From Rhodoferax sp. (GTDB taxonomy: Bacteria > Pseudomonadota > Gammaproteobacteria > Burkholderiales > Burkholderiaceae_C), in the NCBI RefSeq assembly GCF_012927445.1, contig NZ_JABBPD010000006.1, positions 1 to 64,000 of the forward strand: a stretch of DNA of 64,000 nt, in the 5' to 3' direction. A model generated the notes under the pieces. The model did no database searches. It was not told where the DNA came from and was given only the letters and a program-made list of their open reading frames with translations. Of this stretch, positions 34,066 through 61,621 are shown in pieces; within the stretch, counting starts at the first letter, position 1; the number at the start of each line of letters is the position of its first letter. The position numbers and the translations under genes are program-made.

Positions 34066-34121
34066 TTGCTATATATTCAATAGCTACTTACGCAAGAACG
34101 ACGGGGGCTAGCGGCTGATTT
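34066..34121 (+). repeat. GCTA repeat, copy R1 (intergenic)
   Basis: This copy holds the full core GCTA-N10-AGCT-N6-GCA-N8-GGGGGCTA on the plus strand, between dtd and ybeY. The stem GCTAT/ATAGC is intact. The frame used by the translated copies meets TGA just after the core. With R2 it forms an inverted pair around ybeY. Confidence 0.85.
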
Positions 34122-34126
34122 GATCC

Positions 34127-34582
34127 TTAATACGGGTTGTCGAAGCCGAGCCGGGCCATGATTTCCATCTCGCGCAGCTCCATCACCTGGGCGTCTTCCT
34201 CGCTGCTTTCGTGGTCCCAGCCTTGCGCGTGCAGCGTGCCATGCACCAGCAGGTGGGCGTAATGGGCTTGCAGTGTCTTGCCTTGTTCCTTGGCTTCTTT
34301 CGCCACCACCGGGGCGCACAGCACCAGATCGGCGGTGACCACCGGTTCTTGCGTGTAGTCGAAAGTCAGCACGTTGGTGGCGTAGTCTTTTTTGCGGTAA
34401 TCGCGGTTCAGCGCCAGCCCTTCTTCGGCGTCCACAATGCGCACGGTGATTTCGGCGTCGCTTTGCAGCGCGTGGCGAATCCAGCGCGCCACCTTGTGGC
34501 GGGGCAGGGCGGCGCGGTGCAGGGCAGCGTCGTCGATCTTGCCGAATTGCAGCGATAAAGTGAGTTGATTCAATAAAAGCAT
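34127..34582 (-). CDS. ybeY: Endoribonuclease / rRNA maturation factor YbeY
   Basis: A 151-residue metalloprotein with the zinc site H-x3-H-x5-H in [20 protein letters not shown] (about residues 112-122) and the preceding block [18 protein letters not shown], which is the strongly conserved UPF0054 signature. It takes part in 16S rRNA 3'-end maturation and ribosome quality control. It lies downstream of the PhoH-like ybeZ gene on the same strand, the conserved ybeZ-ybeY pair. The two genes are separated by 70 bp that is almost entirely a GCTA repeat copy (R2), and R1 follows ybeY in the opposite orientation. Confidence 0.95.
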
Positions 34583-34587
34583 TGGGT

Positions 34588-34644
34588 AAATAGGCTTCTA
34601 GCCCCCGTTTAATATGCGTTGATAGCTATTATTTCAATAGCAAA
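34588..34644 (-). repeat. GCTA repeat, copy R2 (intergenic)
   Basis: The copy reads on the minus strand with core spacing identical to R1 and the stem GCTATT/AATAGC. It lies between ybeZ and ybeY, inside a likely operon, so it is transcribed. A TAA interrupts the frame used by the translated copies. Confidence 0.85.
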
Positions 34645-34652
34645 TAGAGGAG

Positions 34653-35660
34653 TTAGATCAGCTTGGTTCGGACGCGCGACCGCGCCACCACGGCCGCCAC
34701 CTCCGGCTCGTCGTCGTCCCGGCGGCTCTGGCGGGAACGGCCCGCTACGTCGTAGGCATCCACGATGCGGGCCACCAGCGGATGGCGCACCACATCGGCA
34801 CTGGTGAAGCGGCACATGGCAATGCCGTCGACCCGCTTGAGCACGCGCTCGGCGTCGATCAGGCCGCTGAACTGGGTTTTCGGCAGGTCGATCTGGCTGA
34901 TGTCGCCCGTCACCACCGCTTTGGAGCCGAAGCCGATGCGGGTCAGGAACATTTTCATTTGCTCGGGCGTGGTGTTTTGCGCCTCGTCCAGAATGACAAA
35001 AGCGTTGTTCAGCGTGCGCCCGCGCATGAAAGCCAGCGGCGCGATTTCAATCGTTTGCCGTTCCAGCGCTTTTTGTACCTGCTCGAAACCCATCAGGTCA
35101 TACAGCGCGTCGTACAGCGGGCGCAGGTAGGGGTCGATTTTTTGGGTCAAATCGCCGGGCAAAAAGCCCAGCCGTTCACCGGCTTCTACCGCTGGCCGCG
35201 TCAGCATGATGCGTTGCACGGCGCTGCGCTGCAAGGCGTCCACTGCCATCGCCACCGCCAGGTAAGTTTTGCCGGTCCCGGCCGGGCCAATGCCAAAGGT
35301 GATGTCGTGGCTGGCGATGCTGTCCAGGTAGGTGGCCTGGTTCATCGTGCGGGCCTTCAGGTCGCTGCGCTTGGTTTTCAGCGCGTGGCTGTCGGCATCG
35401 TCCATCTCTCCGTCGCCGGCCAGCATCAGTTGCACGGTGGCGGGCTCGATCGGGCGCGACGCCATTTCGTACAGGGCCTGCAGCATTTCCATGCCGCGCT
35501 TGGCCTTGGCCTTGGTACCGTCCACCTTGAACTGCTCGTGCCGGTGCGCAATTTTGACTTGCAGCGCCACTTCGATGGTGCGCAGATGCTCGTCCATCGG
35601 GCCGCACAGGTGCGACAGTCGGGTGTTGTTGGGCGGGGAAAACAGGTGTCGGAGAATCAA
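34653..35660 (-). CDS. ybeZ: PhoH-like ATPase YbeZ
   Basis: A 335-residue P-loop protein with Walker A GPAGTGKTYLAVAMA (about residues 139-153) and Walker B AFVILDEAQNTTPEQMKMFLTR, plus GFGSKAVVTGDISQIDLP, the PhoH pattern. The N-terminal part (LRTIEVALQVKIAHRHEQFKV) is a KH-like domain. YbeZ acts with YbeY in RNA processing. The C-terminus is basic and Arg-rich (RSRQSRRDDDEPEVAAVVARSRVRTKLI), possibly RNA-contacting. It is divergent from ruvA, with 41 bp between the coding regions. Confidence 0.93.
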   Translation of the reverse strand: MILRHLFSPPNNTRLSHLCGPMDEHLRTIEVALQVKIAHRHEQFKVDGTKAKAKRGMEMLQALYEMASRPIEPATVQLMLAGDGEMDDADSHALKTKRSDLKARTMNQATYLDSIASHDITFGIGPAGTGKTYLAVAMAVDALQRSAVQRIMLTRPAVEAGERLGFLPGDLTQKIDPYLRPLYDALYDLMGFEQVQKALERQTIEIAPLAFMRGRTLNNAFVILDEAQNTTPEQMKMFLTRIGFGSKAVVTGDISQIDLPKTQFSGLIDAERVLKRVDGIAMCRFTSADVVRHPLVARIVDAYDVAGRSRQSRRDDDEPEVAAVVARSRVRTKLI

Positions 35661-35701
35661 GTTGATAATTCCTTAATAGGGTTACCAATGATAGGCAAGA
35701 A

Positions 35702-36274
35702 ATGATCGGCAAACTGACAGGCACACTGAGCGACAAGAATCCACCCCAGGTGCTGGTGGACTGCAACGGTGTCGGCTATGAGGTCCATGTGCCCATGAGC
35801 ACGTTTTACAACCTGCCGGAACTGGGCGCCCGCGTCAGTCTGTTGACGCACTTTGTGGTGCGGGAAGACGCGCAAATTTTGTATGGGTTCGAGAACGCCC
35901 AGGAGCGTGAAGCTTTTCGCCAGCTCATCAAGATTACCGGTGTCGGTCCCCGCACCGCCTTGTCGGTGCTGTCGGGCATGAGCGTCGGCGAGCTGGCGCA
36001 AGCCATCACGCTGCAGGAAGCCGGGCGGCTGATCAAGGTGCCCGGCATTGGCAAGAAAACGGCGGAACGTTTGCTGCTGGAACTCAAAGGCAAGCTTGGT
36101 CCCGATATCGGCGTGTCTGCCAGCGTCGCCAACGATGCGCAGGGCGACATTCTGCAAGCCCTGCTGGCGCTGGGTTACAGCGACAAGGAGGCGGCGGTAT
36201 CGCTCAAGGCCCTGCCAGCCGAGGTCGGCGTGAGCGAGGGTATCAAGCTGGCGCTGCGGGCGCTCGCGAAGTAG
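35702..36274 (+). CDS. ruvA: Holliday junction DNA helicase subunit RuvA
   Basis: A 190-residue protein starting [28 protein letters not shown] (OB fold), followed by two helix-hairpin-helix motifs ([16 protein letters not shown] and [19 protein letters not shown]) and the C-terminal domain III ([16 protein letters not shown]) that contacts RuvB. RuvA binds four-way junctions and loads the RuvB motor. In many proteobacteria ruvB follows directly; here the two are separated by 5.4 kb with a restriction-modification gene, a toxin-antitoxin pair and a carbonic anhydrase. Confidence 0.97.
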
Positions 36275-36314
36275 GCTGTTAGAGCCAGGCTGAAGCAGGC
36301 GCCGCGCTGCTACG

Positions 36315-39300
36315 ATGCACGCCATGACCCTTGCCAGCCCCTCTCATCCCGTCCATGCCTATCTTCAATCCCTGCAAAAAGAGCTGTTGCGCGGCGACGC
36401 CACTGAGCATACGCACCGCAGCGCACTCAAAACGCTAATTGAGTCCGCCGCCCCCGGCTTACTTGCCACCAACGAGCCCAAAGCCACCCAGCGCGAAAAT
36501 AAGCCTGATTACATCGTGCGCAAAGCCGCGTCGGTGATTGGCTTTGTTGAAGCCAAAGACGTGGATAAAAGCCTCAAGACCACGCTGAAAACGAACCAGC
36601 TCAAGCGCTACCTTGAAGCTCTTCCCAACCTGATGTTGACCAACTACCTCGACTTCATCTGGTTCGTCGGGGGCGAAAAGCGCATGGAAATCAGCTTGGG
36701 GCAGTTGAATGGTCAGCATGTGTCGCCTGCCAAAGATGCGTCTGCGCGGTGGGACGAATTGATTGGTTGCTTTCTGGCCGAAGTCAGCCCCACTGTCTCC
36801 AGCCCGTCGCAGCTTGCCAAAAACCTGGCAGGCCAAACCCGGCTGTTGCGCGATTTGTCGCTGGAACTGCTCACCGCCGGAGACGCTGACCTTCTTGAGC
36901 AAGAGCAGAGTTTTCGCGCGCTGCTGGTGCCCGACCTCAAGCCCGAAGAGTTTGCCGACATGTACGCGCAAACCGCCGCCTACGGACTGTTCACGGCCCG
37001 CGTGTTTGCCCACACCACGATGTTTGGCGGCAACCCCGAGTCGCTGCCCGATAGCCTCAAAAAGAACGATGCCTTCAGCCTGGAGCAAGCGGCTTACCTC
37101 ATTCCCAAGGCCAACCCTTTTTTGCGACAGTTCTTTCAGCATGTCGCCAGCCCCAACCTGAACCCGCAACTGCGCTGGCTGGTGGAGCAAATTGCCGATA
37201 GCTTGCGCTACACCGACATGGAAAAAGTGTTGCACCGGCAAAGCCGAAAGCAGGGCTTTGAAGACCCGGTGTTTCACTTTTACGAAACCTTTTTGGCGGA
37301 ATACGACCGCAAATTGCGCGAATCGCGGGGCGTTTACTACACCCCTGAGCCGGTGGTGGACTACATCGTGCGCGGTGTGGACTGGCTGCTGGCCAACCGG
37401 TTTGACAAGCCTGACGGCCTGGCCGACCCCAGCGCCCTGATCCTGGACCCGGCCACCGGCACGGCCACTTTTTTGCGCAAGGTGATAGCCCTCATTCACC
37501 AGCGGGTGGATGGCCAGCATGGCGCTGGGGCCTGGCCGGGTTACGTGCGCTCGCAGTTGCTGCCCCGCATCTTTGGCTTCGAGCTGATGATGGCACCCTA
37601 CACGGTGGCCCACCTCAAGCTGGCCTTGCAGTTGCAGGAGTCGGGCTTTGAGTTTCAAGCCGGTGAGCGCCTGCATGTGTACCTGACCAACACGCTGGAT
37701 CAGTTGCATCAGCAAACTGCCGCCATGCTGGGCCAGTGGATCGCCAAGGAAAACGAAGGCGCCGAGAAAATCAAGATCGACAAGCCCGTCGTGGTGGTCG
37801 TGGGCAACCCGCCGTATTCAGGCGAGTCGCGCAACAAGAGCGACTGGATCATGCAGTTGCTGAAGACCTACAAGACCGAGCCCGAAGGCGGCCCACTGAA
37901 AGAGCGCAACAGCAAGTGGCTCAATGACGACTACGTCAAGTTCATCCGCTTTGCGCATGATCGTATCGCCCGCACCGGCCACGGCATCGTGGCCTTCATC
38001 ACCAACCACGGCTGGCTGGACAACCCCACTTTTCGTGGCATGCGGGCGCAGTTGATGGCCGATTTTGACGACATCTATGTGCTGGACCTGCACGGCAACA
38101 GCAAGAAGAAAGAGCGCACGCCCGTGGCCTTGAAAGCGCAGGGTGACGACAAAAACGTGTTTGATATTGAGCAGGGCGTGAGCATCACCTTTCTCGTCAA
38201 ACTGCCCAATATCGTTCAGGCTGAGCCGGTTAAAGCCGTTGAAGAAGTTTTTGAACTCACCGCCCCCGAGCCCGGCGCTGTGAAAAAAGCCAAACACCGC
38301 CAGCTCGAAGGCGGCAAAGTCACGCTCAAGGCCCGCATTCACCAGGCCGACCTGTGGGGCAGCCGCGACTACAAATACGACTGGCTGGAAAAGCACGGCT
38401 TGTTGGATACACCGTGGCAAGACCTGCAGCCCGCCTTGCCGCAACTGCTGCTGGTGCCACGCGATGAGACCGATGCGGCGGAGTATGAGCGGGGCTGGAA
38501 GGTGACGGACATCTTCCCGGTCAACTCGGTGGGCATCGTCACCGCCCGCGACAGCCTGACCATTCACTTCACTGCGGAATCGCTGAAACAAACCGCTGAG
38601 CGGTTTTCCAAGCTGCCGGTGGAGGTTGCGCGTGAGCAATTCAAACTGGGCGAAGACACTCGCGACTGGACGGTGGTTGGCGCGCAGAAGGACTTGAACG
38701 ACACGCGGCGCCCGCCCAAGCAGACGGAAGACGCTGCTTTGCAGCCGACACCGCCAAAGTCCGAATGGTTGCTAGACCCGGCGCGCATTGTGCCTGTAGC
38801 CTACCGCCCGTTTGACACGCGCTTCACCTACTACACCGGCAAGTCAAAAGGGTTTCATTGCATGGCGCGTGGCGAGGTGATGCGGCATTTGGCTAATGAT
38901 CCCAACAACCTCAGTTTGAGCACGACACGTTCAGTCGAAACGGGCGGTTTCACTCACGTATTCGCGATGCAGGGCCTGACGACTCTTCACACAGTTTCGA
39001 TCAAAGAAGTCAACTATGCCTTTCCGCTCTGGCTGCTTCCCGATCAGATTGCGCCCGGTCAACCGCTGCCCACGCAGCGCCACCCCAATCTCGCCCCTGC
39101 CTTCCTGAGCGCGTTGGCGCAGGCGCTGGGCCGCCCGGTGTCACCTCTGCATGGCCTGCCTGAAGGCATCACGCCCGAGGACGTGCTGGCCTATGTTTAT
39201 GCGGTGCTGCACGCCCCCAGCTACCGCAGCCGCTACGCCGGGTTCCTGAAAAGCGACTTTCCCCGAGTTCCACTATCAAATCAGGCGTTAGCCCCCGTCG

Positions 39301-39713
39301 ATACTGCGCAAGAAGCTACTGATTTTGTAGCGATATGGAATGCCTTGTTGCCACTGGGCATGCAGTTGATCGACTTGCACCTGCTCAAAAACGTGCCCTC
39401 CGCTTTGCGCGTCAAGTTTGCCATGCCGGGCAGCAACGAGGTGGAGAAGCCGCGATTTGAGAACGGCCGTGTCTGGATCAACGCCACCCAATACTTTGAC
39501 GGTGTGCCTGCGGACACCTGGGGCTTCAAGGTCGGTGGCTACGCGGTGTGCGAAAAGTGGCTCAAAGACCGCAAAGGCCGCCAGCTCGACTTTGCCGACA
39601 TCCAGCACTATGGCGCCGTCGTCGCCGCACTCACCCGCACCCGCGAGCTGATGCAGGAGATCGACGCCGTTGCCAACGGCAAGCTCTGGCCCGAAGCGGC
39701 AGGCAGTCTTTGA
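36315..39713 (+). CDS. Single-chain restriction-modification enzyme (type IIG-like, ISP-type C-terminus)
   Basis: The 1132-residue protein combines nuclease and methyltransferase. Near the N-terminus KPDYIV and GFVEAKD (Lys at about residue 80) form a PD-(D/E)xK nuclease site. The methyltransferase has motif I in LDPATGTATFLRKV (about 375) and motif IV NPPYSGES (about 497), typical of N6-adenine methylation. The C-terminal 500 residues should read the target sequence (RPFDTRFTYYTGKSKGF block, as in type ISP enzymes). Unlike type ISP proteins (about 1500 residues) there is no helicase domain between nuclease and methyltransferase. About 20 residues near 988-1007 are encoded by an antisense GCTA repeat. 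Start ATG 36315 or 36324. Confidence 0.87.
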   Translation: MHAMTLASPSHPVHAYLQSLQKELLRGDATEHTHRSALKTLIESAAPGLLATNEPKATQRENKPDYIVRKAASVIGFVEAKDVDKSLKTTLKTNQLKRYLEALPNLMLTNYLDFIWFVGGEKRMEISLGQLNGQHVSPAKDASARWDELIGCFLAEVSPTVSSPSQLAKNLAGQTRLLRDLSLELLTAGDADLLEQEQSFRALLVPDLKPEEFADMYAQTAAYGLFTARVFAHTTMFGGNPESLPDSLKKNDAFSLEQAAYLIPKANPFLRQFFQHVASPNLNPQLRWLVEQIADSLRYTDMEKVLHRQSRKQGFEDPVFHFYETFLAEYDRKLRESRGVYYTPEPVVDYIVRGVDWLLANRFDKPDGLADPSALILDPATGTATFLRKVIALIHQRVDGQHGAGAWPGYVRSQLLPRIFGFELMMAPYTVAHLKLALQLQESGFEFQAGERLHVYLTNTLDQLHQQTAAMLGQWIAKENEGAEKIKIDKPVVVVVGNPPYSGESRNKSDWIMQLLKTYKTEPEGGPLKERNSKWLNDDYVKFIRFAHDRIARTGHGIVAFITNHGWLDNPTFRGMRAQLMADFDDIYVLDLHGNSKKKERTPVALKAQGDDKNVFDIEQGVSITFLVKLPNIVQAEPVKAVEEVFELTAPEPGAVKKAKHRQLEGGKVTLKARIHQADLWGSRDYKYDWLEKHGLLDTPWQDLQPALPQLLLVPRDETDAAEYERGWKVTDIFPVNSVGIVTARDSLTIHFTAESLKQTAERFSKLPVEVAREQFKLGEDTRDWTVVGAQKDLNDTRRPPKQTEDAALQPTPPKSEWLLDPARIVPVAYRPFDTRFTYYTGKSKGFHCMARGEVMRHLANDPNNLSLSTTRSVETGGFTHVFAMQGLTTLHTVSIKEVNYAFPLWLLPDQIAPGQPLPTQRHPNLAPAFLSALAQALGRPVSPLHGLPEGITPEDVLAYVYAVLHAPSYRSRYAGFLKSDFPRVPLSNQALAPVDTAQEATDFVAIWNALLPLGMQLIDLHLLKNVPSALRVKFAMPGSNEVEKPRFENGRVWINATQYFDGVPADTWGFKVGGYAVCEKWLKDRKGRQLDFADIQHYGAVVAALTRTRELMQEIDAVANGKLWPEAAGSL
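39278..39336 (-). repeat. GCTA repeat, copy R3 (inside restriction-modification gene, antisense)
   Basis: The core (GCTA-N10-AGCT-N6-GCA-N8-GGGGGCTA) is on the minus strand while the gene is on plus. The gene reads through it in frame, adding roughly LAPVDTAQEATDFVA between the conserved FPRVPL and LLPLGMQLIDLHLL blocks. The stem is GCTAC/GTAGC. Confidence 0.85.
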
Positions 39714-39738
39714 CTTTTTGTATCCCAAACAATACAAT
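39710..39738 (+). promoter_or_regulatory. Promoter and palindromic operator of toxin-antitoxin pair
   Basis: TTGACT (39710-39715) and TACAAT (39733-39738) are 17 bp apart, a near-consensus sigma-70 promoter. The start would be about 39745, one base before the toxin ATG, so the mRNA would be leaderless or nearly so. TTGTAT (39718-39723) and ATACAA (39732-39737) form an inverted repeat over the spacer and -10, a likely binding site for the HTH antitoxin. The -35 overlaps the stop codon of the restriction gene. Confidence 0.65.
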
Positions 39739-39745
39739 CTAAGCG

Positions 39746-40036
39746 ATGAAGGTCATCCACACCACGGAAGTTTTCGATACTTGGTTCGCCGGGTTGAAGG
39801 ACAAGCAAGCCGCGCGGCGTGTCCAGATTCGAATCGACCGTGCCGAGGGTGGCAACTTTGGCGATTGCGAACCGGTGGGCGAGGGGGTTTCGGAAATGCG
39901 GATTCATTACGGGCCCGGCTATCGCGTGTATTTCGCCCAGCGCGGCATGGAAGTTGTGATTCTGCTGGCGGGTGGCGACAAATCAACGCAGTCGCGTGAC
40001 ATTCAAACCGCGCTGGAAATTGCGCGGCAACTTTAG
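39746..40036 (+). CDS. RelE/ParE-superfamily toxin (HigB-like)
   Basis: A 96-residue basic protein with the phage Gp49/HigB-like pattern: FDTWFAGLKDKQAARRVQIRIDRAEGGNFGDCEPVGEGVSEMRI, then YGPGYRVYFAQRGMEVVILLAGGDKSTQSRDIQTALEIA. Members of this COG3657-type group are mRNA interferase-like toxins placed before their antitoxin. The order toxin then antitoxin with 9 bp between is that of higBA-like modules. It immediately follows the restriction-modification gene. Toxic action is inferred from family. Confidence 0.88.
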   Translation: MKVIHTTEVFDTWFAGLKDKQAARRVQIRIDRAEGGNFGDCEPVGEGVSEMRIHYGPGYRVYFAQRGMEVVILLAGGDKSTQSRDIQTALEIARQL

Positions 40037-40045
40037 GAGGTCAAT

Positions 40046-40345
40046 ATGGGAACGATCAAGCTGCGTAAGTGGGATAGCGCCGAACACCTCAAAACCGACG
40101 AGGACATGGTGCTCTATCTGGAAGCCTGTCTGGAGGAGGCCGGGGATGATGCGGCGTTTATTGCCAAAGCGCTAGGTACGATTGCCCGTGCCAAGGGCAT
40201 GACGCAGCTTGCCAAGGAAACCGGTCTGGGACGTGAAAGTCTTTACAAGGCACTGTCCGGCGAAGGAAATCCAAGTTTTTCGACCATTCTCAAAGTCATT
40301 GCCGCGCTGGGCATTAAATTGCACGTCGAAACAGCGCCTGCCTGA
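40046..40345 (+). CDS. HTH antitoxin of addiction module (HigA-like)
   Basis: A 99-residue Xre-type DNA-binding protein. The helix-turn-helix is in MTQLAKETGLGRESLYKALSGEGNPSFSTILKVIAALGIKL (about residues 54-94); the N-terminal part (DSAEHLKTDEDMVLYLEACLEEAGDDAAFI) is the acidic toxin-binding segment typical of 'putative addiction module antidote' proteins. It has a good ribosome site (TTAGGAGG) and starts 9 bp after the toxin. It should bind the TTGTAT/ATACAA operator. The stop lies 2 bp from the end of the convergent carbonic anhydrase gene. Confidence 0.88.
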   Translation: MGTIKLRKWDSAEHLKTDEDMVLYLEACLEEAGDDAAFIAKALGTIARAKGMTQLAKETGLGRESLYKALSGEGNPSFSTILKVIAALGIKLHVETAPA

Positions 40346-40347
40346 CC

Positions 40348-41559: not shown

Positions 41560-41713
41560 GTCAGGCGGACCCAATGGGCGTACACAATGATCAGGCCCCT
41601 CTTTGGAAAAGACGGGTTGGTGACTTGTTATCGGCACCTTCGGCCGGTCACTTGAGCGGGGCCGGCCCGCTGCAGGCTATAGTCAAGCTCCACTTTCGCA
41701 CCCGCACCGCCCC

Positions 41714-42772: not shown

Positions 42773-42800
42773 CGCCGCGAGACGGGCCGGGTCGACTGGT

Positions 42801-43448: not shown

Positions 43449-43456
43449 GGTCGGGT

Positions 43457-44068: not shown

Positions 44069-44099
44069 GGGACCTCCCGTCAAAGTGGCTACAAAAAAA

Positions 44100-45047: not shown

Positions 45048-45073
45048 GTTTTCTTTCTCCAATTCAGTCATTG

Positions 45074-45473: not shown

Positions 45474-46268
45474 TCACAGCATGGAGAAATCGCGCTCGAA
45501 TTTCATCAAGTGCTGGCCGCCATCGACCAGGATCGTGGTGCCGGTGAGAGACTGATTGTCGATCGCAAATTTCACGGTGGCGGCGACATCAGCCGCCGTG
45601 GACGAGCGGCCCAGCAGGGAGAGCTGGTGCAGCGTTTCAAATTTTTCCTGGCTCAGCAGATGGCTGGTCAAGGTGAGGCCGGGGGCCACCCCGACGACGC
45701 GAATCTGCGGGCTCAGCGCCATGGCCAGCATGGTGTTGGCGGCTTCCAGGGCGGCTTTGGACAGCGTGTAGCTGAAAAAATCGGGGTTCTGGTTCCATAA
45801 TTTTTGGTCCAGCAGGTTCACCACCACGCCCCGGGGGCCAAGCGCCGAAGAGCGGTCCGTGCCTTCGCGCGCCAGCACATGCGCATGCAGAGCCTGCGCC
45901 AAAATAATGGCGGCCCCGGTGTTGCTGTGCAAATGTTTGTCCATGGCGTCAAAGCTGAAGCTGGCCGACGTATCGTGCTCAAAGGTGGAGGCGCTGTTGA
46001 CCACGGCGTCGACCCGGCCAAATTGCCGGATGACTTGCGGCAACAAGTTGCGCACCGCCGTCTCATCGATTAAATTTGCACAAAAAGCGACGCTAGCCCC
46101 CGCCAATGCTGCGCAGTCAGCTACTGTTTTAGTAGCGTCATCTGCTGAATCGCGGTAATGGACGGCCACCTGCCAGCCGTCTTTCGCCAGCGTGAGCGCA
46201 ATTTCACGACCTAAGCGTTTGGCGGCGCCGGTGACCAGAACCGTGCGGAGAGGAGAGGGGGCGGACAT
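45474..46268 (-). CDS. Short-chain dehydrogenase, probable pteridine/dihydromonapterin reductase (FolM-like)
   Basis: A 264-residue SDR with the cofactor loop VLVTGAAKRLGREIA (T-G-x3-R-x-G variant, the arginine favours NADPH), NSAS motif VNSASTFEHD, catalytic YTLSK (Y-x3-K) and GVAPGLTL. The TGAAKRLGR loop and the neighbouring folB suggest a FolM/PTR1-like enzyme that reduces dihydropterins or dihydrofolate. Residues about 44-60 (DATKTVADCAALAGASVAF) are encoded by a sense-oriented GCTA repeat. The gene is divergent from the COG1565 methyltransferase with 21 bp between coding regions. Confidence 0.85.
   Translation of the reverse strand: MSAPSPLRTVLVTGAAKRLGREIALTLAKDGWQVAVHYRDSADDATKTVADCAALAGASVAFCANLIDETAVRNLLPQVIRQFGRVDAVVNSASTFEHDTSASFSFDAMDKHLHSNTGAAIILAQALHAHVLAREGTDRSSALGPRGVVVNLLDQKLWNQNPDFFSYTLSKAALEAANTMLAMALSPQIRVVGVAPGLTLTSHLLSQEKFETLHQLSLLGRSSTAADVAATVKFAIDNQSLTGTTILVDGGQHLMKFERDFSML
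46087..46139 (-). repeat. GCTA repeat, copy R4 (inside SDR gene, sense)
   Basis: The core is GCTA-N10-AGCT-N6-GCA-N8-GGGGGCTA in the direction of the gene, translated as VADCAALAGA. The stem GCTACT/AGTAGC is perfect. It closely matches R3, with most differences in the N positions. Confidence 0.8.
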
Positions 46269-50845: not shown

Positions 50846-50867
50846 GGAACAAGCATCCACCCTGGCT

Positions 50868-51773: not shown

Positions 51774-51836
51774 AGTTTAAGTTTCCATACCTGTTTTTCA
51801 GCTAGTTTATAGCCGAACAATCCGTTTGTTTAATAT

Positions 51837-53039: not shown

Positions 53040-53127
53040 TTTCTTCTTATGGAATAAATGTGCCCTCATAAACGTCTGCAGCTTGAACAGCCCCCCAAAC
53101 TTGTGGTGGTCTAATTTAAAAAGACAC

Positions 53128-53508: not shown

Positions 53509-53582
53509 AAAACCCGTTACAAATTCCCAGGGCTTGAAACCTGCTGGACTGGCCTTAATCTGATGTTTTGAAAGGTGTTCCC

Positions 53583-54020
53583 ATGACTGATTCGCTGCAC
53601 ATTGTTTGTCCCCACTGCCATACCACCAACCGGGTGCGCAGCGAGAATCTGACCCAGGCGCCCGATTGCGGCAGTTGCCACAAGCCGCTGTTCATGGCGC
53701 ATTCGCTGGCCCTGGATGAAAGTAATTTTGACCGCCACATCAGCCGCAGCCAGATTCCGCTGCTGGTGGATTTCTGGGCGCCGTGGTGCGGCCCCTGTCG
53801 CCAGATGGCCCCGGCGTTCGAGCAGGCGGCGGCGCAGCTGGAGCCGAAGATGCGGCTGGTCAAGGTCGATACCGAAGCGGCCCAGAATTTGGGTGCTCGC
53901 TTCAATATCCGCAGCATTCCGACGCTGGCGCTGTTTGCCAATGGGCGCGAAGTGGCGCGCCAGGCCGGTGCCATGGGTGCGGCCGATATCGTGCGCTGGG
54001 CGCTGGCGCAACGTCTTTGA
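53583..54020 (+). CDS. trxC: Thioredoxin 2 (TrxC) with zinc ribbon
   Basis: ATG 53583, 145 residues. The N-terminal zinc ribbon is HIVCPHCHTTNRVRSENLTQAPDCGSCHKPL (two C-x2-C pairs). The thioredoxin domain has the active site DFWAPWCGPCRQMAPAFEQAA (about residues 63-75) and the cis-proline in SIPTLALFANG. It reduces disulfides in the cytoplasm and is often under oxidative-stress control in other bacteria. A CCCGGTT/AACCGGG hairpin (54051-54077) without a T run lies between it and the ROK gene. Confidence 0.95.
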   Translation: MTDSLHIVCPHCHTTNRVRSENLTQAPDCGSCHKPLFMAHSLALDESNFDRHISRSQIPLLVDFWAPWCGPCRQMAPAFEQAAAQLEPKMRLVKVDTEAAQNLGARFNIRSIPTLALFANGREVARQAGAMGAADIVRWALAQRL

Positions 54021-54112
54021 TTTGGGCGCCAACAGGCGTGCCACCAAGCCCCCGGTTGTAACGCCACCGTAACCGGGCGGGCGGGGTTCCCCCTTTCTGA
54101 TGAAATACGGAC

Positions 54113-55105
54113 ATGAACCCACAATTTTTAGCGACTGAATTCAAGCTGTCTCCAGGGGCCGCGCCCGTGGCCTGTGTCGACATTGGGGGCACCAAGGTGG
54201 CCGTCAGCATTGCCGATGCGCAAGGGGTGCGCGGCCGGGTCGCCGAGCCGACCGCCAAGGAGGGGCCGCACGATGCGTTGGCCCAGCAAATCATCCGCCT
54301 GCTGGGTGAGAGTTGTCAGGCCGCTGGTGTGGCGACCGACGCGTTGGCGGCGGTGGGGGTGGCCTCTTGCGGGCCGTTTGTGTTGAATGCGGGCCTGGTG
54401 GAATTGGCCGCTCCCAACATCTGCGGTGGCCTGGCCGGCAAGGCGCGTGGTCTGCCGAACGACTGGACCACCGCGCTGCTGGAGGCGCCGCTGCGGCAAC
54501 GCTTCCCCAATGTGCGGGTGGAAAACGACGGTATCGGTGCGCTGGAGGCAGAGCGGCGCTGGGGCGCGCTGCAGACCAAGGGCCAACCGATGGCCAACTG
54601 CGCCTACGTCACCTGGAGCACCGGCATTGGCGTTGGCCTGTGTGTGGACGGCCATGTGCTGCGCGGCAAGAACGGCAATGCCGGCCACGCCGGCCACCTC
54701 TTTGTCAGTGACAACGACGATGCCCTGTGTGGCTGCGGCAATGTCGGCGACGTCGAAGCGCTGGTGGCGGGCAACGCCATCCCGCGCCGCTTTGCGCACC
54801 TGGGTTATCCCGATGCAGCTACACTTTTTATAGCTGCTTACGCAGGTAATACGGGGGCTGCGGCCATTATTGATGAAATGTGCCGGATCATGGGCCGCAC
54901 GCTGTACAACCTGATCGTGACGCTGGATTTGCAGCGCATCAGCATTGGGGGCAGTGTGTTTTGGCATCACCGTGCCTTGCTCCTGCCGAAGTTGCAATCC
55001 TACGTGCATGGCAAATTGCCGGCCTTGACCGACGGCTGCGAACTGCTGCCCGCCGGCCTGGGTGAACGCGTCGGGGATTTCGGCGCGCTGGCGCTGGTGG
55101 CGTAA
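54113..55105 (+). CDS. ROK family sugar kinase (fructokinase/glucokinase-like)
   Basis: A 330-residue ASKHA kinase: CVDIGGTKVAVSIADAQG (phosphate 1), VENDGIGALEAE (catalytic Asp), WSTGIGVGLCVDG and the ROK zinc motif NAGHAGHLFV...LCGCGNVGDVEALVAG. In ROK enzymes the zinc motif is C-x-C-G-x2-G-C-x-E; here the third cysteine is replaced by Asp, so zinc binding may be lost or altered. Residues about 235-254 (ATLFIAAYAGNTGAAA) are encoded by a sense GCTA repeat. Hexose is the likely substrate. The gene is convergent with the GGDEF-EAL gene. Confidence 0.87.
   Translation: MNPQFLATEFKLSPGAAPVACVDIGGTKVAVSIADAQGVRGRVAEPTAKEGPHDALAQQIIRLLGESCQAAGVATDALAAVGVASCGPFVLNAGLVELAAPNICGGLAGKARGLPNDWTTALLEAPLRQRFPNVRVENDGIGALEAERRWGALQTKGQPMANCAYVTWSTGIGVGLCVDGHVLRGKNGNAGHAGHLFVSDNDDALCGCGNVGDVEALVAGNAIPRRFAHLGYPDAATLFIAAYAGNTGAAAIIDEMCRIMGRTLYNLIVTLDLQRISIGGSVFWHHRALLLPKLQSYVHGKLPALTDGCELLPAGLGERVGDFGALALVA
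54815..54868 (+). repeat. GCTA repeat, copy R5 (inside ROK kinase gene, sense)
   Basis: The core has the fixed spacing (GCTA-N10-AGCT-N6-GCA-N8-GGGGGCTG), with G as its last base. It is translated as IAAYAGNTGA in the frame shared with R4, R6 and R7. Confidence 0.8.
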
Positions 55106-55124
55106 GGCGGCGCCTAAGCTGCGT

Positions 55125-58070
55125 CTACCGTTGCGCCATGAAGGCTTCAAAGTCCGGCGCGGACATCGGCCGGGCGAACAGGTAGCCTTGCGCATAATCG
55201 CAACCGGCGGCGGCCAGCAGATCGCGCTGCAACTCGGTTTCAACGCCTTCGGCGATCACCTTGATGCCCAGTTCATGGGCCATCACGATGATGGCCTTGC
55301 ACAACGCCAGATCGGTGCACGCCGGCACCAGGTGCCGCACAAAGGACTGGTCGATCTTGATGAAGTCGATGTCAAATTTCTGCAGGTAGGACAGCGACGA
55401 GTAGCCGGTGCCAAAGTCGTCCAGCGACACCTGAATGCCGGCGTCGCGCAGCGCCAGTAACTGGTCGGCCACGCTGTCGCTGCTGTCCAGCAGCAGCCCC
55501 TCGGTGATTTCCACCACAATGCTCTCGCCCGGCAGCCCCATCGCTTGCAGCTGCTGGAACCAAGGCTTGTGGGCGCTGCCACTGTGGTGAAACTGCACCG
55601 GCGACTTGTTGACGCTGATCTGGAACTGGGGCGACAGCGAAGCGCGCCACGCCTGCACCTGGGTGGCTGCCTGCTGGAACACCCAGTCACCGATCTCGAC
55701 GATGAGACCACTGGCTTCCGCGATCGGGATGAAGGCGGCCGGACTGATCAGCCCGCGCGTCGGGTGGTGCCAGCGAATCAACGCCTCCGCCTTGTGCACG
55801 GCGCCCGTGGCCATCTCCACAATCGGCTGGTAAACCACCCGGAACTGTTGGCCCGCCAGACCGGTCCGCAAGTCGTTCGCCAGGCGCACCCGGGTTTGTG
55901 CCGCCTCTTGCAGCGCCGGTGTAAAAAAGCTGAAGCGGTTGCGCCCGGCACCCTTGGCGACATACAGCGCCTGGTCGGCATGCTTGAACAAGTCTTCAAT
56001 TTCGGTCGCATCCAGCGGGTACATGGTGATGCCAATGCTGGCCGAGACAAAGACCTGCTCATCACCCAGCTGGAACACCGACTCCAGCGCCTGCAGCAGC
56101 TTTTGCAGGATGCGTTCCAGGCTGCTGGCCTCCGTCAGGTCGCTCAGGATGACAGTGAACTCGTCGCCGCCCATGCGAGCCACGGTGTCGGATGCGCGCA
56201 CCGCGCCCCGGATGCGGCGGGCGGCTTCGATCAGCAGCAGGTCGCCGCTGTCGTGCCCGAGCGTGTCGTTGACTTCCTTGAAATGGTCCAGGTCAATGAA
56301 CAGGAGGGCGAGTTGCTGGCCGTCGCGGTTGCTTTTTTTGATCTCTTGTTCCAGCCGGTCGCGCAGCATGCTGCGGTTGGGCAGGCCGGTCAGGGCGTCA
56401 AAATGGGCCTGCTGCCAAATCAGCGCCTCTGATTTTTTCCGCTCCGTGATGTCGGTGTGGGTGCCTGTCATGCGCAGGGGCTTGCCCTCGGCATCACGGC
56501 TGATCACCATGCCGCGGGCCAACACCCATTTCCAGCTGCCGTCCTTGCAGCGCACGCGGCGTTCGTTGCTGTAGGTCGGTGTCAGTCCGTCAAAATGGGC
56601 CTGGCGGTCGCGGTGCATTTGCGCCCGATCCTCGGGGTGAATGCGCGAATCGAGTTCGTCGGTGGGGTTGCTGCGTTCAGCCTCGCCAAAGCCATACATT
56701 TCCAGCAGGCGTTTCGAGAAAAATTTCTCGCCGCTCGGGATATCCCAGTCCCACACGCCGTCACCGGTACTCTCCAGCGCCAGCTTCCAGATTTGCTCGT
56801 TTTCCCGCAAGGCCGCCTCACCCTGTTTGCGTTCGGTAATGTCCTGCAGCACCGCCGTGCGTTTCACGGGCTGGCCCTGTTTCCAGGTCGTGGTACCCAT
56901 GGAGTGGACCCAGATGTGGCGCCCCTTGGCGGTGATCATTTCCAGTTCCAGATCATGCAGCTGCGGCTGATCGGTGCCGTCCGAATAGGAGGCCTTGATC
57001 AGTGCCTTGGCGGCGGGTGTGAAAAATTGGTTGGCGGTGGCCGGTGTGGGGGTGAATTCCTGGATCGAGGTGTCCAGGATGCGGTAAATCCCTTCGGTCC
57101 AGAACACGGTGTCATTGGCAATATCAGCGTCCCAGCCACCGACCCGGGCGATGGCCTGGGTGGCGTCCAGCAACTGGTTCAGCCGTTTGCGCGCTTCTTC
57201 GGCCTGCACATAGTCCGAGACATCGGCGAAAGTGCGCACCATGCCGCCCGAGGGCAGCATTTGTGTTTTGACCTCCAGCGTGCGGCCGGCCAGGGTGGTG
57301 CGCAGATAGTGGTTGGGGATGGCGCCGCTGCAGCCGTCCGTCAGATAGCGGCGGGCATGCGGATCAACCAGGCAGGCAGCAGGACCGAAATCGCCGCGTT
57401 GACACTGATAAAGAGCGATCTCTTGCACGGTGGGGTGGGTCGCCAGAAACTGCTCGGGCAGACCCAGCAACTCGGAGGCCTTGGGGTTGAAGGTGCTGAC
57501 CCGTCCGTTGGCCTCAATCATGAAAATGCCCTGGCTGATGCTGGCCAGCGTGGTTTCCAGCAGCCGGGTTTCTTCAATCAGCTGCGCGTTCAGCTCAAGC
57601 AACGCCTGCTCGGCTTGCTTGCGTTCGGTGATGTCGGTGTGGGTGCCAATCATGCGCAAGGAGTTGCCCTGCGCGTCGTGGCTGACCACCATGCCATGCG
57701 ACATAATCCATTTCCAGGAGCCGTCCTTGCAGCGCATGCGCAGGTCAATCGCATAGCCCTTGGAGCGGCCTTCCAGGCAGGCGGTGAAAGCGTCCTGCAC
57801 ACGGGCGATGTCGTCCGGGTGGACGCGGGTGACAAATTCGTTATAGCCCTGGTCAATCTCATCGGCCGCATAACCGAGCATCTCTTTCCAGAGGACGGGG
57901 TGCGTCTGCTCACCGGTCACCACATTCCAGTCCCAGACGCCTTGGCCGGCACTTTCCAGGGCCAGTTTCCAAGGGTTTTTACTAACGTCCAGCTCATGCC
58001 CGGACGGGTACAACGCTGACGGATTAGCCGGCGGGGCCAGGTGAGATGAATGGTCTGAAGGCGAGGTCAT
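55125..58070 (-). CDS. PAS-GGDEF-EAL cyclic-di-GMP signalling protein
   Basis: ATG 58070 gives 981 residues; ATG 58085 is possible. Four PAS-type segments precede the output domains: WKLALESAGQGVWDWNV (about 34-150), FMIEANGRVSTFNPKASELLG, a degenerate third one and WKLALESTGDGVWDWDI, the first and last being PAS-3 with TDITERK linkers. The GGDEF domain has intact GGDEF in ARMGGDEFTVIL and an RASD inhibitory I-site five residues earlier. The EAL domain has KAEALIRWHHP, EITEGLLLDS, LDDFGTGYSSLSYL and KIDQSFV, so both making and breaking c-di-GMP are possible. No membrane helix is seen. It is followed on the same strand by a sensor kinase pair, perhaps by chance. Confidence 0.93.
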   Translation of the reverse strand: MTSPSDHSSHLAPPANPSALYPSGHELDVSKNPWKLALESAGQGVWDWNVVTGEQTHPVLWKEMLGYAADEIDQGYNEFVTRVHPDDIARVQDAFTACLEGRSKGYAIDLRMRCKDGSWKWIMSHGMVVSHDAQGNSLRMIGTHTDITERKQAEQALLELNAQLIEETRLLETTLASISQGIFMIEANGRVSTFNPKASELLGLPEQFLATHPTVQEIALYQCQRGDFGPAACLVDPHARRYLTDGCSGAIPNHYLRTTLAGRTLEVKTQMLPSGGMVRTFADVSDYVQAEEARKRLNQLLDATQAIARVGGWDADIANDTVFWTEGIYRILDTSIQEFTPTPATANQFFTPAAKALIKASYSDGTDQPQLHDLELEMITAKGRHIWVHSMGTTTWKQGQPVKRTAVLQDITERKQGEAALRENEQIWKLALESTGDGVWDWDIPSGEKFFSKRLLEMYGFGEAERSNPTDELDSRIHPEDRAQMHRDRQAHFDGLTPTYSNERRVRCKDGSWKWVLARGMVISRDAEGKPLRMTGTHTDITERKKSEALIWQQAHFDALTGLPNRSMLRDRLEQEIKKSNRDGQQLALLFIDLDHFKEVNDTLGHDSGDLLLIEAARRIRGAVRASDTVARMGGDEFTVILSDLTEASSLERILQKLLQALESVFQLGDEQVFVSASIGITMYPLDATEIEDLFKHADQALYVAKGAGRNRFSFFTPALQEAAQTRVRLANDLRTGLAGQQFRVVYQPIVEMATGAVHKAEALIRWHHPTRGLISPAAFIPIAEASGLIVEIGDWVFQQAATQVQAWRASLSPQFQISVNKSPVQFHHSGSAHKPWFQQLQAMGLPGESIVVEITEGLLLDSSDSVADQLLALRDAGIQVSLDDFGTGYSSLSYLQKFDIDFIKIDQSFVRHLVPACTDLALCKAIIVMAHELGIKVIAEGVETELQRDLLAAAGCDYAQGYLFARPMSAPDFEAFMAQR

Positions 58071-58127
58071 GGCGCAGTATCCCATGACCTGCATGCCCCT
58101 CGCACGGGACGAAGATTGGACCACAAA

Positions 58128-59531
58128 TCAAGCCGTCAGCGGCAAGCTGAGCCTGATCCGCAAGCCCTGCGGCGAGACGGCCTGCGCGGTGGCTGTGCCG
58201 CCATGGCGGTGGGCAATCTCGGCCACGATGGCCAGGCCCAGGCCGCAGCCGCCGGGCAATTCACTGGCCCGCCAGAAGCGTTCAAAAACGTGTGCCAGAT
58301 CGGCTGGCGACAAGCCGGGGCCGTTGTCTTCGACTTCCAGCTGGGCCTGATTCTGTGACTGCGTGACGCGCAGTGTCACCACGCTGCCCGTGCCGGCATA
58401 GAGGATCGCGTTGTCCAGCAGGTTGCTCAGGGCCTCATGCAGCAAAATTTTTTCTCCCTCAATCAGGAGGCTGTCTTCGCCCTCGTAGCCGAGGTCGATA
58501 CCGGCGGCCAATGCCCGTGGTGTCCATTCCCGCGCGACCTCGCGCGCCAGTGCCGCAGCGTCCAGGGCTTGCAGTTTGACGTCGGCCTCGTTGCGCGCCA
58601 AGGACAGCAGTTGATGCACCAGGTGCGCACTGCGCTGGGCGCCGGCCAGGACCTTGGTCAGGCGGTTCTTCAGCGCTTGCGGGTCAGACTCCGCCAGGGC
58701 CAGTTCGGTCTGGCTGATCAAGCCCGCCAGCGGCGTGCGCAGTTGGTGGGCGGCATCGTTTAAAAAACGCTTTTCCTGGCCGAGGCTGCGACGCACCACC
58801 GACAGCAGCTGGTTGACGGCACCGGCCAGGGCATGCACTTCCTGCGGCGCTTGTGTCATCTCGATCGGTGACAAGGCAGACAGGCTGAATTCGCGCCGGT
58901 CACCCAGTTGCGCCTGCAGCCGTTTCAAGGGGCTCAAGCCCCGGGAAATACCGCCATAGACCAGCACGCTCAAAACCGCACCCAGCAACAGCAGCGGCAG
59001 CAGCATGTCGGACACCAGTTCAGCGGTGATGCGTTTTTGGACCGCCAGACTTTTGGCCACTTGCACCCGCAAATTTTGCGGTTCGCTCGGCTCGCCGTAG
59101 TTGACGTCCAGCAGCGCGATGCGCATCGGCTTGCCGTCCACCTTGACGTTGTAGAGCAAGGGTTCACCCGGCGCTGAGTAGGCGCCGTCCGGCGGCCCGG
59201 GCAGTTTGCCGTTGCCCAGCAGAAAACTGCCGGGCGGTGACGACACCATGTAACTCACCCGGTCCTTCGGGTCTTGTTCGATGATGTCCTGCGCGGCCCT
59301 TGGAAAGTCGATCAGCAGGCCGGAACCCACCGGCTTGACCTGGCGCGCCAGCGAGCGCACCGACTGCGTGAGGGACTGGTCAATGCCTTTCTCGGCGTAG
59401 TTCAGGGCAATGCGGTAGGTCAGCGCGCCGCCGACCAGCAACAGCACCAACTGTGGCAGCAACAGCCACAGCAGCAGTTGCCGTTTCAGCGACAGGCCGT
59501 GACCGGATGGGGCCGGGTTGCTTGTGGTCAC
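58128..59531 (-). CDS. Sensor histidine kinase (TctE-like)
   Basis: A 467-residue kinase with two membrane helices (LLLWLLLPQLVLLLVGGALTY and LLPLLLLGAVLSVLVYGGI) around a periplasmic 2CSK_N domain, then HAMP, H-box LNDAAHQLRTPLAGL (phospho-His), N-box LSNLLDNAILYAG, G1 VEDNGPGLSP and G2 GGCGLGLAIVAEIAHRHGG. The 2CSK_N and helix pattern are those of TctE, which senses tricarboxylates, but no tripartite transporter genes are nearby. The response regulator lies 48 bp upstream on the same strand. Confidence 0.92.
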   Translation of the reverse strand: MTTSNPAPSGHGLSLKRQLLLWLLLPQLVLLLVGGALTYRIALNYAEKGIDQSLTQSVRSLARQVKPVGSGLLIDFPRAAQDIIEQDPKDRVSYMVSSPPGSFLLGNGKLPGPPDGAYSAPGEPLLYNVKVDGKPMRIALLDVNYGEPSEPQNLRVQVAKSLAVQKRITAELVSDMLLPLLLLGAVLSVLVYGGISRGLSPLKRLQAQLGDRREFSLSALSPIEMTQAPQEVHALAGAVNQLLSVVRRSLGQEKRFLNDAAHQLRTPLAGLISQTELALAESDPQALKNRLTKVLAGAQRSAHLVHQLLSLARNEADVKLQALDAAALAREVAREWTPRALAAGIDLGYEGEDSLLIEGEKILLHEALSNLLDNAILYAGTGSVVTLRVTQSQNQAQLEVEDNGPGLSPADLAHVFERFWRASELPGGCGLGLAIVAEIAHRHGGTATAQAVSPQGLRIRLSLPLTA

Positions 59532-59579
59532 CGTTTATGTCTGGTTTGAATGGTCGGCTTGCACGCAGGTCGGGCCACC

Positions 59580-60290
59580 TCAGGGCGTGCCTGATTCCAG
59601 CATGTAGCCCAGTCCGCGCACGTTACGGATGTTCAGGCCGGAGTCGCCCAGTTTGCGGCGCAGGCGATGGATGTAAACCTCCAGCGCATTGGAGCCAACG
59701 CCGACCACGTCGCCGGGCACCGATTGCCAGACTTCCTGCACATCTTCCCGGCTGACCACCTGGCCGGCGTTGGTGACCAGCAAGGACAGCAAGGACAGCA
59801 AGGCCCACTCGCGCTGCGTCAACTCCATTGCTTCATCGTCCAGCCAGGCTTGCGGCAGGGTGGCGTCCACCCGCAGCCGCCGCGTGCTGTCGGCGACCAG
59901 CTCCAGTGAGCCGCCAAAAGCCGGTAGACGGGCGCGCCGCAGCATGGCGCCCAGACGGGCCTGCAGCTCAGCCATGCTGAAGGGCTTGGTCAGGTAGTCA
60001 TCGGCGCCGGCGTTGAGGCCTTGCACCCGGTCGTCCACGCCGTCGCGGGCGGTCAGCACGAGTACTGGCAGCGCCGGCAGGCGCAACCGGATCCAGTGCA
60101 GCACCTCCATGCCGCTCACTTTGGGCAGGCCCAGGTCCAGCAGCACACCGTCAAAGCGGTGGGTTTCCAGCAGCGCTTGCGCGATGGCGCCATCGGCGGC
60201 AGGCGTGACGGTATGGCCGGCTTGGGCCAGTTGGGCGCTTAACGCATCGCGCAACAATTCGTCGTCTTCAACAATCAGCAAACTAGACAT
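59580..60290 (-). CDS. OmpR/TctD-like response regulator
   Basis: A 236-residue regulator: receiver domain with acidic pair LLIVEDDELLRDAL, phospho-acceptor Asp in DGVLLDLGLPK, Thr/Ser in VLTARDGVDDRV and Lys in DYLTKPFSMAEL, then an OmpR-type winged helix (MELTQREWALLSLLSLLVTNAGQVVSREDVQEVWQ, SNALEVYIHRLRRKLGDSGLNIRNVRGLGYML). It pairs with the kinase downstream. The gene for the target operon is not obvious in this window. Confidence 0.94.
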   Translation of the reverse strand: MSSLLIVEDDELLRDALSAQLAQAGHTVTPAADGAIAQALLETHRFDGVLLDLGLPKVSGMEVLHWIRLRLPALPVLVLTARDGVDDRVQGLNAGADDYLTKPFSMAELQARLGAMLRRARLPAFGGSLELVADSTRRLRVDATLPQAWLDDEAMELTQREWALLSLLSLLVTNAGQVVSREDVQEVWQSVPGDVVGVGSNALEVYIHRLRRKLGDSGLNIRNVRGLGYMLESGTP

Positions 60291-60334
60291 GGGCCAAGCA
60301 TAACAAGCAAACAGACGCTAACGCCCGATCAGGC

Positions 60335-61621
60335 CTACAGGCTGGCCCGGACCGCCTCAACCCGGGCGAGATGAATCAGTTCACCGATATTTTTGCCACT
60401 GGCCCCCGTCGCCATTGCGGTGGTAGCTATTAAATGAGTAGCAATACTTTGTGCCGCCGTCAGTGCGTCCAGCAAGCGCGGGCCCTGGGGGTAGGGCGAC
60501 TCGCTCAGGCCCAGTCGGCCACGGGCATCACATTCACAGGCCAGCAGCACCTCGCCAAAGCGCTGCGGCTTGCGAAAGGCGTCGCAACGCTCCAGCAGAC
60601 GCACCAACGCCGCCGGTCCCAGCTCGCCACTGCGGTGAATGTTGCCGTGTTCGCGAGCCACCACGTCGGCCAGTTCGCGGCATTCCGTGGGCAGGCGCAG
60701 CCGCTCGCAAATGCCTTTGAGTAGTCTGGCGCTGCGTTCTTCGTGGCCAATATGGCGCGGCAGCATGTCAGGTGGCGTGGTGCCTTTGCCCAGGTCATGG
60801 AACAGGCAGGCCAGGCGCACTGGCAGGCTGGCTTGCAAACGGGCGCTCATGTCCAGCACCAGCAGCAGGTGGGCGCCGGTGTCGATTTCGGGGTGGTAGT
60901 CGGCGCGTTGCGGCACGCCCCAGAGCTGGTTCACTTCGGGCAGCAGGCGCGCCAGGGCGCCACAGTCCCGCAGCACCTCGAGCATGCGAGAAGGGGTGTT
61001 TTCCATCAGGCCTTTGGCCAGTTCCTGCCAGACCCGTTCGGCCACCAGGTGATCTGCTTCGCCTTCCTGAACCATCTCCTGCATCAGTTGCAGCGTATCC
61101 GGCGCCACCGTGAAGTCACAAAAGCGTGCCGCCAGCCGCGCCACGCGCAGGATGCGCACCGGGTCTTCGCGAAAGGCGGCGGTGACGTGGCGGAACACCT
61201 TGTGCTCCAGGTCTTGTTGTCCGCCGAACGGGTCCACCAGCGCATCAGCTGCCTGCCAGGCCGCCGGGTTCAGTGCAATTTCAGTATCAAATCGGCCTCT
61301 AGCCCCCATGGAATGTGCGCTGACAGCTATCGAATTAATAGTAAGGTCGCGACGCGCCAGATCTTCTTCCAGCGTCACATCGGGGGCGGCGTGGACGCAA
61401 AAGCCGTGGTAGCCGGGCGCGGTTTTGCGTTCGGTGCGGGCCAGTGCGTATTCTTCTTTGGTCTGCGGGTGCAGGAACACCGGAAAGTCTTTGCCGACCG
61501 GCAAAAAGCCCTGCGCGACCAAGGCCTCGGGCGTGGCGCCCACCACCACCCAGTCCCGGTCTTTTACCGGCAGCCCCAGCAGTGCATCCCGCACCGCGCC
61601 CCCCACCATGTAAATCTGCAT
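60335..61621 (-). CDS. cca: Multifunctional CCA-adding tRNA nucleotidyltransferase
   Basis: A 428-residue protein: nucleotidyltransferase head MQIYMVGGAVRDALLGLPVKDRDWVVVGATPE (metal-binding D-x-D in DRDW), LARRDLTINSIA, EDPVRILRVARLAARF, and HD domain with LACLFHDLGKGTTP and AREHGNIHR. It adds and repairs the 3' CCA of tRNAs. Two GCTA repeats are translated in frame: R7 (about residues 93-111), which together with ALNPAAWQAADALV lengthens the loop between TINSIA and DPFGGQQDL beyond the usual E. coli length, and R6 near the C-terminus (SIATHLIATTAMATGASG). The GST gene stops just 1 bp upstream. Confidence 0.94.
   Translation of the reverse strand: MQIYMVGGAVRDALLGLPVKDRDWVVVGATPEALVAQGFLPVGKDFPVFLHPQTKEEYALARTERKTAPGYHGFCVHAAPDVTLEEDLARRDLTINSIAVSAHSMGARGRFDTEIALNPAAWQAADALVDPFGGQQDLEHKVFRHVTAAFREDPVRILRVARLAARFCDFTVAPDTLQLMQEMVQEGEADHLVAERVWQELAKGLMENTPSRMLEVLRDCGALARLLPEVNQLWGVPQRADYHPEIDTGAHLLLVLDMSARLQASLPVRLACLFHDLGKGTTPPDMLPRHIGHEERSARLLKGICERLRLPTECRELADVVAREHGNIHRSGELGPAALVRLLERCDAFRKPQRFGEVLLACECDARGRLGLSESPYPQGPRLLDALTAAQSIATHLIATTAMATGASGKNIGELIHLARVEAVRASL
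60395..60445 (-). repeat. GCTA repeat, copy R6 (inside cca, sense)
   Basis: The core spacing is exact, ending GGGGGCCA in place of GGGGGCTA. It is translated as IATTAMATGA in the same frame as R4, R5 and R7. It is a direct repeat of R7, about 0.9 kb away in the same gene. Confidence 0.8.
61289..61344 (-). repeat. GCTA repeat, copy R7 (inside cca, sense)
   Basis: The core is exact apart from ACTA instead of GCTA at the first position and AT before the G run. It is translated as IAVSAHSMGARG and lies in a loop where most CCA enzymes have only a few residues. Confidence 0.85.

Follow-up and report, generated by a model that had tools for sequence, protein, structure and literature searches.

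The window analysed in this study comprises the first 64,000 nucleotides of contig NZ_JABBPD010000006.1 (forward strand) from a Rhodoferax sp. genome (assembly GCF_012927445.1), and it carries seven dispersed copies, R1 to R7, of a long and rigidly spaced repeat motif. The copies are given here by the coordinates of a 43-bp core pattern, and gene names in the window were assigned by Pfam. R1 (34068..34110, forward strand) lies between the convergent genes dtd and ybeY, with a conserved tail that extends to approximately position 34131, and R2 (34599..34641, reverse strand, tail to approximately 34578) occupies most of the spacer between phoH and ybeY. R3 (39289..39331, reverse strand) is located within a Type ISP restriction-modification gene (36315-39713, forward strand), on the strand opposite to that of the gene and in a stop-free frame; no ortholog of this gene was found in the sister stretches searched. 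R4 (46094..46136, reverse strand) spans codons 45-59 of a short-chain dehydrogenase gene (45474-46268, reverse strand) and R5 (54818..54860, forward strand) spans codons 236-250 of a ROK-family kinase gene (54113-55105, forward strand). R6 (60400..60442) and R7 (61300..61342), both on the reverse strand, are carried by one gene of the CCA-adding-enzyme type (60335-61621, reverse strand), at codons 394-408 and 94-108, respectively, and the start of R7 falls in a TINAIA stretch that is conserved in other families. R1 to R4 match the core pattern exactly, while R5, R6 and R7 each carry one mismatch, and no further match with up to three mismatches was found in the window. An earlier note on this DNA, made from the sequence alone, had described the same seven copies; all of them are present, although its start positions were off by 2-11 bases.

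Across the genome (3.94 Mb in ten contigs), 92 exact copies of the 43-bp pattern were found, while a reversed-pattern control gave none; when up to three mismatches were allowed, the count rose to 439 copies (219 forward and 220 reverse) with a single match for the control. These numbers lie far above the ten genome-wide copies that the earlier note had set as a threshold, and the rigid internal spacing that it had claimed for seven copies holds across this large family. The 43-bp core that it had proposed is likewise a real pattern, but the motif itself is longer, since conserved columns extend from approximately -1 to +65 around the core (n = 76 copies), giving a motif of approximately 60-66 bp. 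Its rough consensus is TTGCTAT-AT-rich-ATAGCT-RCTTGCGCA-N6-ACGGGGGCTAGAGGC-NN-ATTT, followed by an A-rich end. A weight matrix trained on copies from this genome (with which copies of other dialects score lower) returned 115 matches in 800 kb at a threshold of 8, of which 103 remained at a score of 30, compared to one match in Markov-shuffled and none in reversed sequence. As the copies retain high scores while the controls are nearly empty, the family is sharply separated from the background. Such strong over-representation on both strands is what would be expected of an uptake sequence.

The distribution of the motif was assessed with a pattern neutral to dialect, in which 21 bases are fixed and up to three mismatches are allowed. 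At least ten copies were present in 53 of 89 genomes of the genus and in 82 of 299 sampled genomes of the family, with up to 494 copies in a genome, while only six of 291 genomes from other families of the order displayed a match (one each), which is below the reversed control and thus at chance level. Species dialects, another feature expected of uptake sequences, were found, and these differ chiefly at the second dyad of the motif. The dialect of the genome under study reads GCGCA..ACGGGGGCTA, while that of G010 is GCGCTT..AAGNGCTA, that of G004, G041 and G043 is GCCCTT..AAGGGCTA, that of G040 is GCGCTT..AAGGGCTA and that of G124 is GCCGGC..GCCGGCTA. Among the 80 listed of 112 stretches with exact matches, which provide names rather than frequencies, Rhodoferax was the commonest genus (31), and Polaromonas, Curvibacter and many other betaproteobacteria were also represented; judging from these names, the bacterial family in question would be the Comamonadaceae. 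Exact matches among those listed also occurred on contigs labelled as Patescibacteria and Rhodocyclaceae metagenome-assembled genomes (L088, L082), which are perhaps binning errors.

The placement of copies scoring at least 20 was surveyed in 864 kb (positions 1-400,000 of each of contigs C2 and C3, and the window), with genes called by a simple hexamer caller rather than taken from annotation. This survey identified 117 copies, or approximately one per 7 kb, of which 56 lie in called genes, 49 are intergenic and 12 overlap gene edges. Copies within genes are therefore rarer than expected, as 85% of the DNA was called as coding. Of the in-gene copies, 48 occupy two main frames (28 on the same strand as the gene and 20 on the opposite strand), which are the frames left stop-free by the consensus, as read off the latter; the remaining four frame classes together hold eight copies, which may be real or may reflect errors in gene calling. 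Host genes outside the window include those for aminopeptidase N (PepN), ThiL, FolC and an acyl-CoA-ligase-like protein (the last below the cut-offs of its models). For copies not wholly contained in genes, the nearest gene boundary was a stop codon in 48 of 61 cases, and spacers between convergent genes hold 22 of 60 copies yet represent only 13.5% of the intergenic bases counted.

The window also contains an exopolysaccharide/capsule-type cluster (2978-24633) that encodes a polysaccharide flippase, an O-antigen-ligase-like protein, glycosyltransferases, Wzz and a sugar transferase. No copy scoring at least 20 was present in the window before 29.9 kb, at the end of which stands one weak weight-matrix match (29900-29942, score 23.7), on the opposite strand and in an unusual frame of the gene at 29660-30751; this eighth match may be a chance occurrence or a decayed copy. 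The absence of the motif from foreign DNA is only suggestive, given that a 42-kb region of ordinary genes is also free of it. Plasmids and phages gave no match to the consensus of the own dialect, although a short and degenerate query that misses other dialects makes this a weak test, and a search of viral contigs with the short-chain dehydrogenase returned no match.

To relate individual sites to the genome-wide state of the motif, a tree was built from a single protein (the carrier of R6 and R7, with the motif columns kept in) for 23 members of the genus, 12 of them motif-bearing and 11 motif-poor. Motif presence requires five changes on this tree, compared to a mean of 8.0 for shuffled labels on the same tree (13 of 500 shuffles required as few as five), indicating that the motif state is clustered but not of single origin. 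The genome under study pairs with motif-poor G006, with a support of only 86/88. The comparison at R6 and R7 drew on 20 of 23 sister genomes, with G012 and G013 omitted due to cut genes and G022 for want of a good match. At the R7 site the motif was present in nine of ten other motif-bearing species (scores 32.6-52.1) and in none of ten motif-poor species (scores -5.8 to -48.0). Similarly, the R6 site carried the motif (score of at least 14) in six of ten motif-bearing and none of ten motif-poor species, the R5 site in two of two and none of three, and the R4 site in one of one and none of two. Sequence comparison thus presents these as old shared sites that are held in lineages possessing the system and lost in those without it. 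The fact that the state of a site follows that of the genome points to a genome-wide, trans-acting cause, and we regard it as the strongest sign of one.

We propose, with a probability of approximately 0.5, that the motif is a double-stranded-DNA recognition motif of the uptake-sequence type that serves natural transformation. It is dispersed on both strands, it occurs in species dialects, its copies in native genes are for the most part not inserts, and at the tested sites it is kept or lost with the genome-wide motif state. From this behaviour we infer uptake itself, a receptor and a direction of selection. Uptake sequences accumulate in resident DNA through biased uptake and recombination. 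In the present case, a DNA receptor on the cell surface, such as a minor pilin of a type IV pilus, would bind the motif on free DNA, and DNA with a better match would enter the cell more frequently and replace the resident allele by recombination. Matches would then accumulate and be maintained at gene ends and at positions where the protein tolerates them, while a change of the receptor would cause the dialect to drift and its loss would lead to erosion of the sites. Matches above curated cut-offs were obtained for ComEC in 79, ComP_DUS in 75 and GspH in 79 of the 89 genomes of the genus, indicating that uptake machinery is available; the ComEA model (TIGR00426) had no match above its cut-off in the 89 genomes and was not used. 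Additionally, Verminephrobacter eiseniae, which is classed as a member of the Comamonadaceae (PMC3110155), is naturally transformable according to the available text of PMC4212676, whose authors suggest that its uptake may be sequence-limited.

A number of observations weigh against this proposal. ComEC, ComP_DUS and GspH matches are also present in motif-poor genomes (G006, G003 and G021). A ComP_DUS match is missing from 14 genomes of the genus, 11 of them motif-bearing and three motif-poor; most of these 14 are drafts of less than 90% completeness, but motif-bearing G013 is rated at 100%. The competence and pilin families do not separate motif-bearing from motif-poor genomes. Motif-bearing G014 lacks the motif at both R6 and R7 (CCA gene, L196). 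The spacing of copies is no more even than random (coefficient of variation 1.13 and 0.94, and 0.61 in the window with eight copies), and the genes found in the 42-kb region free of the motif are ordinary metabolic ones (10 of the 20 that measure at least 700 bp were scanned). Known uptake sequences are 9-11 bp long in the available text of PMC4212676, and the motif far exceeds this length. Furthermore, it is sequence evidence from which an uptake-type function is proposed, and certain sites differ in length from their counterparts elsewhere, as described below.

The main rival reading takes the motif as a chromosomal site bound by a cytoplasmic protein that has come and gone in the same lineages and acts in chromosome organisation, segregation or repair, in which case the motif would have evolved in place under selection and would be present or lost by lineage. 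Such a site accounts equally well for the in-place origin, the strand balance, the dialects and the joint loss of sites, and the failure of competence and pilin families to discriminate between genomes is also in its favour. Conversely, no marked clustering of copies was apparent in the sampled 864 kb, the wholesale loss of the motif in sister species argues against an essential function, and no candidate protein turned up, although no search aimed at one was made. We consider this explanation rather unlikely, while regarding it as the foremost competitor of an uptake-type motif.

A different origin is implied by a non-autonomous mobile element of approximately 66 bp inserted in frame within genes, akin to repetitive extragenic palindromic sequences and their associated tyrosine transposases (REP/RAYT), miniature inverted-repeat transposable elements or Rickettsia palindromic elements. 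The length of the motif is element-like, and half of the copies lie in genes, mostly in stop-free frames. Comparison of occupied and empty sites, as proposed in the earlier note, indicates that most of the in-gene copies examined are not insertions. The orthologs of R4, R5 and R6 align at equal length in four, five and seven sister sequences, respectively. In a comparison with motif-poor sister G006 (seven matrix matches in 700 kb), 12 of the 48 main-frame in-gene copies were comparable, R4 to R7 among them and one being a weak match (score 23). Over an 18-codon window, the G006 proteins showed no gap at 11 of these 12 sites, with an identity of 5-13 of 18 residues in the motif window compared to 80-91% in the rest of the protein; the remaining site has a 10-residue gap. 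Equal length would likewise result from an insertion that predates the split from G006, and distant homologs were therefore compared. The alignment of R5 with a glucokinase of solved structure (3vov) was gap-free, the PepN copy showed a one-residue gap to its solved homolog 4qhp and R4 showed one- and two-residue gaps to 5tgd, which excludes an old 22-residue insertion at these three sites; a 962-residue protein used as query in a structure search gave no match.

The expected 22 or so extra residues are thus generally absent, with the R7 region as an exception, since all seven sequences compared from outside the family, within the order, are shorter there by 22 residues (66 bp). The full length of this region is also present in motif-poor G006 and G009, and part of it in other motif-poor sisters. 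In addition, R6 has 3-5 residues more than the same sequences from outside the family, and in the acyl-CoA-ligase-like protein one copy directly follows a 4-residue length difference while copy 2, a partial exception, spans a difference of 4+8 residues. At six comparable intergenic sites, the spacers of the genome under study exceeded those of G006 by 18, 54, -6, 0, 68 and 29 bp, and so two of the six are longer by 54 and 68 bp; for 26 motif-free spacers, the middle half of the differences ranged from -8 to 15 bp and the 10-90% range from -25 to 44 bp. The R2 site may be read towards insertion as the first possible ybeY start in G006 lies 2 bp after the phoH stop, while the phoH-ybeY spacer of the genome under study measures 70 bp by gene calls, but the end-to-end difference amounts to only 29 bp. 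These exceptions count against a pure in-place model. Nevertheless, since the motif-poor sister shows no gap and the gaps to solved homologs are small, the motif appears, from these alignments, to have arisen largely in place, within existing genes and between genes, as would be expected of uptake sequences in resident DNA. A reading of the motif as a mobile in-frame insertion is accordingly overturned for most in-gene sites examined.

A link to a Y1 (RAYT-type) transposase gene, as expected for REP/RAYT elements, was not found either. Y1 genes are also present in motif-poor genomes and, when 13 Y1 loci were scanned with the own-dialect pattern (up to four mismatches), only one had a nearby copy. 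This copy (L140:1112-1154; contig C5 near 424 kb of the genome under study) has four mismatches and overlaps the 3' end of the genome's sole Y1-transposase match, such that the last residues and the stop codon are read from motif DNA. RAYT linkage was rejected on these grounds, and a mobile element is considered improbable as a general explanation of the motif.

The earlier note had deduced selection for a stem from compensating arm pairs in four copies, but across 114 copies only two pairs are left with marginal support. Positions 5/13 read TA in 54, CA in 30, CG in 15, TG in 11 and other combinations in four copies, and are paired in 70% of cases compared to 66% expected from independent columns (p = 0.04); positions 6/12 are paired in 55% compared to 48% expected (p = 0.04). 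The inner arm pairs are almost invariant or at expectation, and the alternative fold that the note had drawn between the middle TAGC and the final GCTA shows no pairing excess in the same copies (lowest p 0.08). An Rfam search of 33500-62000 gave no match overlapping any copy and three sub-threshold matches elsewhere. At the second dyad, both half-sites change together in several species dialects, while other dialects, including those of the genome under study and G040, are asymmetric, a pattern that a protein touching the DNA at two points would explain no less well than a hairpin. A structured RNA or single-stranded-DNA hairpin acting in transcripts, as a terminator or processing site, is thus highly improbable and was rejected despite the two dyads, the joint half-site changes and the excess of copies near gene ends and in convergent spacers, as covariation is marginal, no Rfam match falls on a copy, in-gene copies lie on both strands and the second dyad is asymmetric in two dialects.

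Rickettsia palindromic elements and REP/RAYT sequences consist of many short repeats of inserted DNA, the former lying in frame in genes. The motif shares with them its many short copies but differs in that, at most in-gene sites examined, it takes the place of native sequence at unchanged length. Among known systems, it resembles the DNA uptake sequences (DUS) of the Neisseriaceae and the uptake signal sequences (USS) of the Pasteurellaceae, which, in the available text of PMC3630211, have many copies and species dialects, are frequent in genes and at gene ends and, in some species, form dyad-symmetric pairs (Frye et al. 2013). It differs from them in its length (approximately 60 bp compared to 9-11 bp), in its density of approximately one copy per 7 kb and in its occurrence in another bacterial family. 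The beta-proteobacterial repeat element (BRE; Hot et al. 2011, PMC3110155) is similarly dispersed in betaproteobacteria, Polaromonas and Rhodoferax included, with some copies in coding sequences. Compared by description only, in the text available, BRE is 75-91 bp long, has a GC content of 69% in Bordetella, is often tandem and reaches at most 29 copies per genome. The motif differs from this description, although the two may yet be identical, and its pattern occurs only at chance level in the 291 genomes sampled outside the family but within the order. No published description of the motif was found in the literature searched, which covered little of the subscription journals.

In the available text of PMC4212676 and PMC7811141, only two bacterial families are named as having sequence-specific DNA uptake. 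If the motif is indeed of the uptake type, we tentatively suggest that the Comamonadaceae, the family judged from named matches, carry a third uptake-type system of self-DNA recognition, with a motif of approximately 60 bp in several dialects, that has rewritten genes in place (conserved housekeeping genes included) and has repeatedly been gained, lost or changed within one genus. To our knowledge, this would be the longest uptake-type signature. Even with a chromosomal binding protein as its cause, a 60-bp motif that replaces coding sequence mostly at unchanged gene length would be unusual. As an uptake-type motif, it might be compared to the "self" tags by which some bacteria recognise their own DNA at uptake, and its dialects, together with repeated gain and loss among relatives, would then provide many natural replicates in which to study the origin of uptake systems, the change of their receptors and how far protein evolution may be bent by them.

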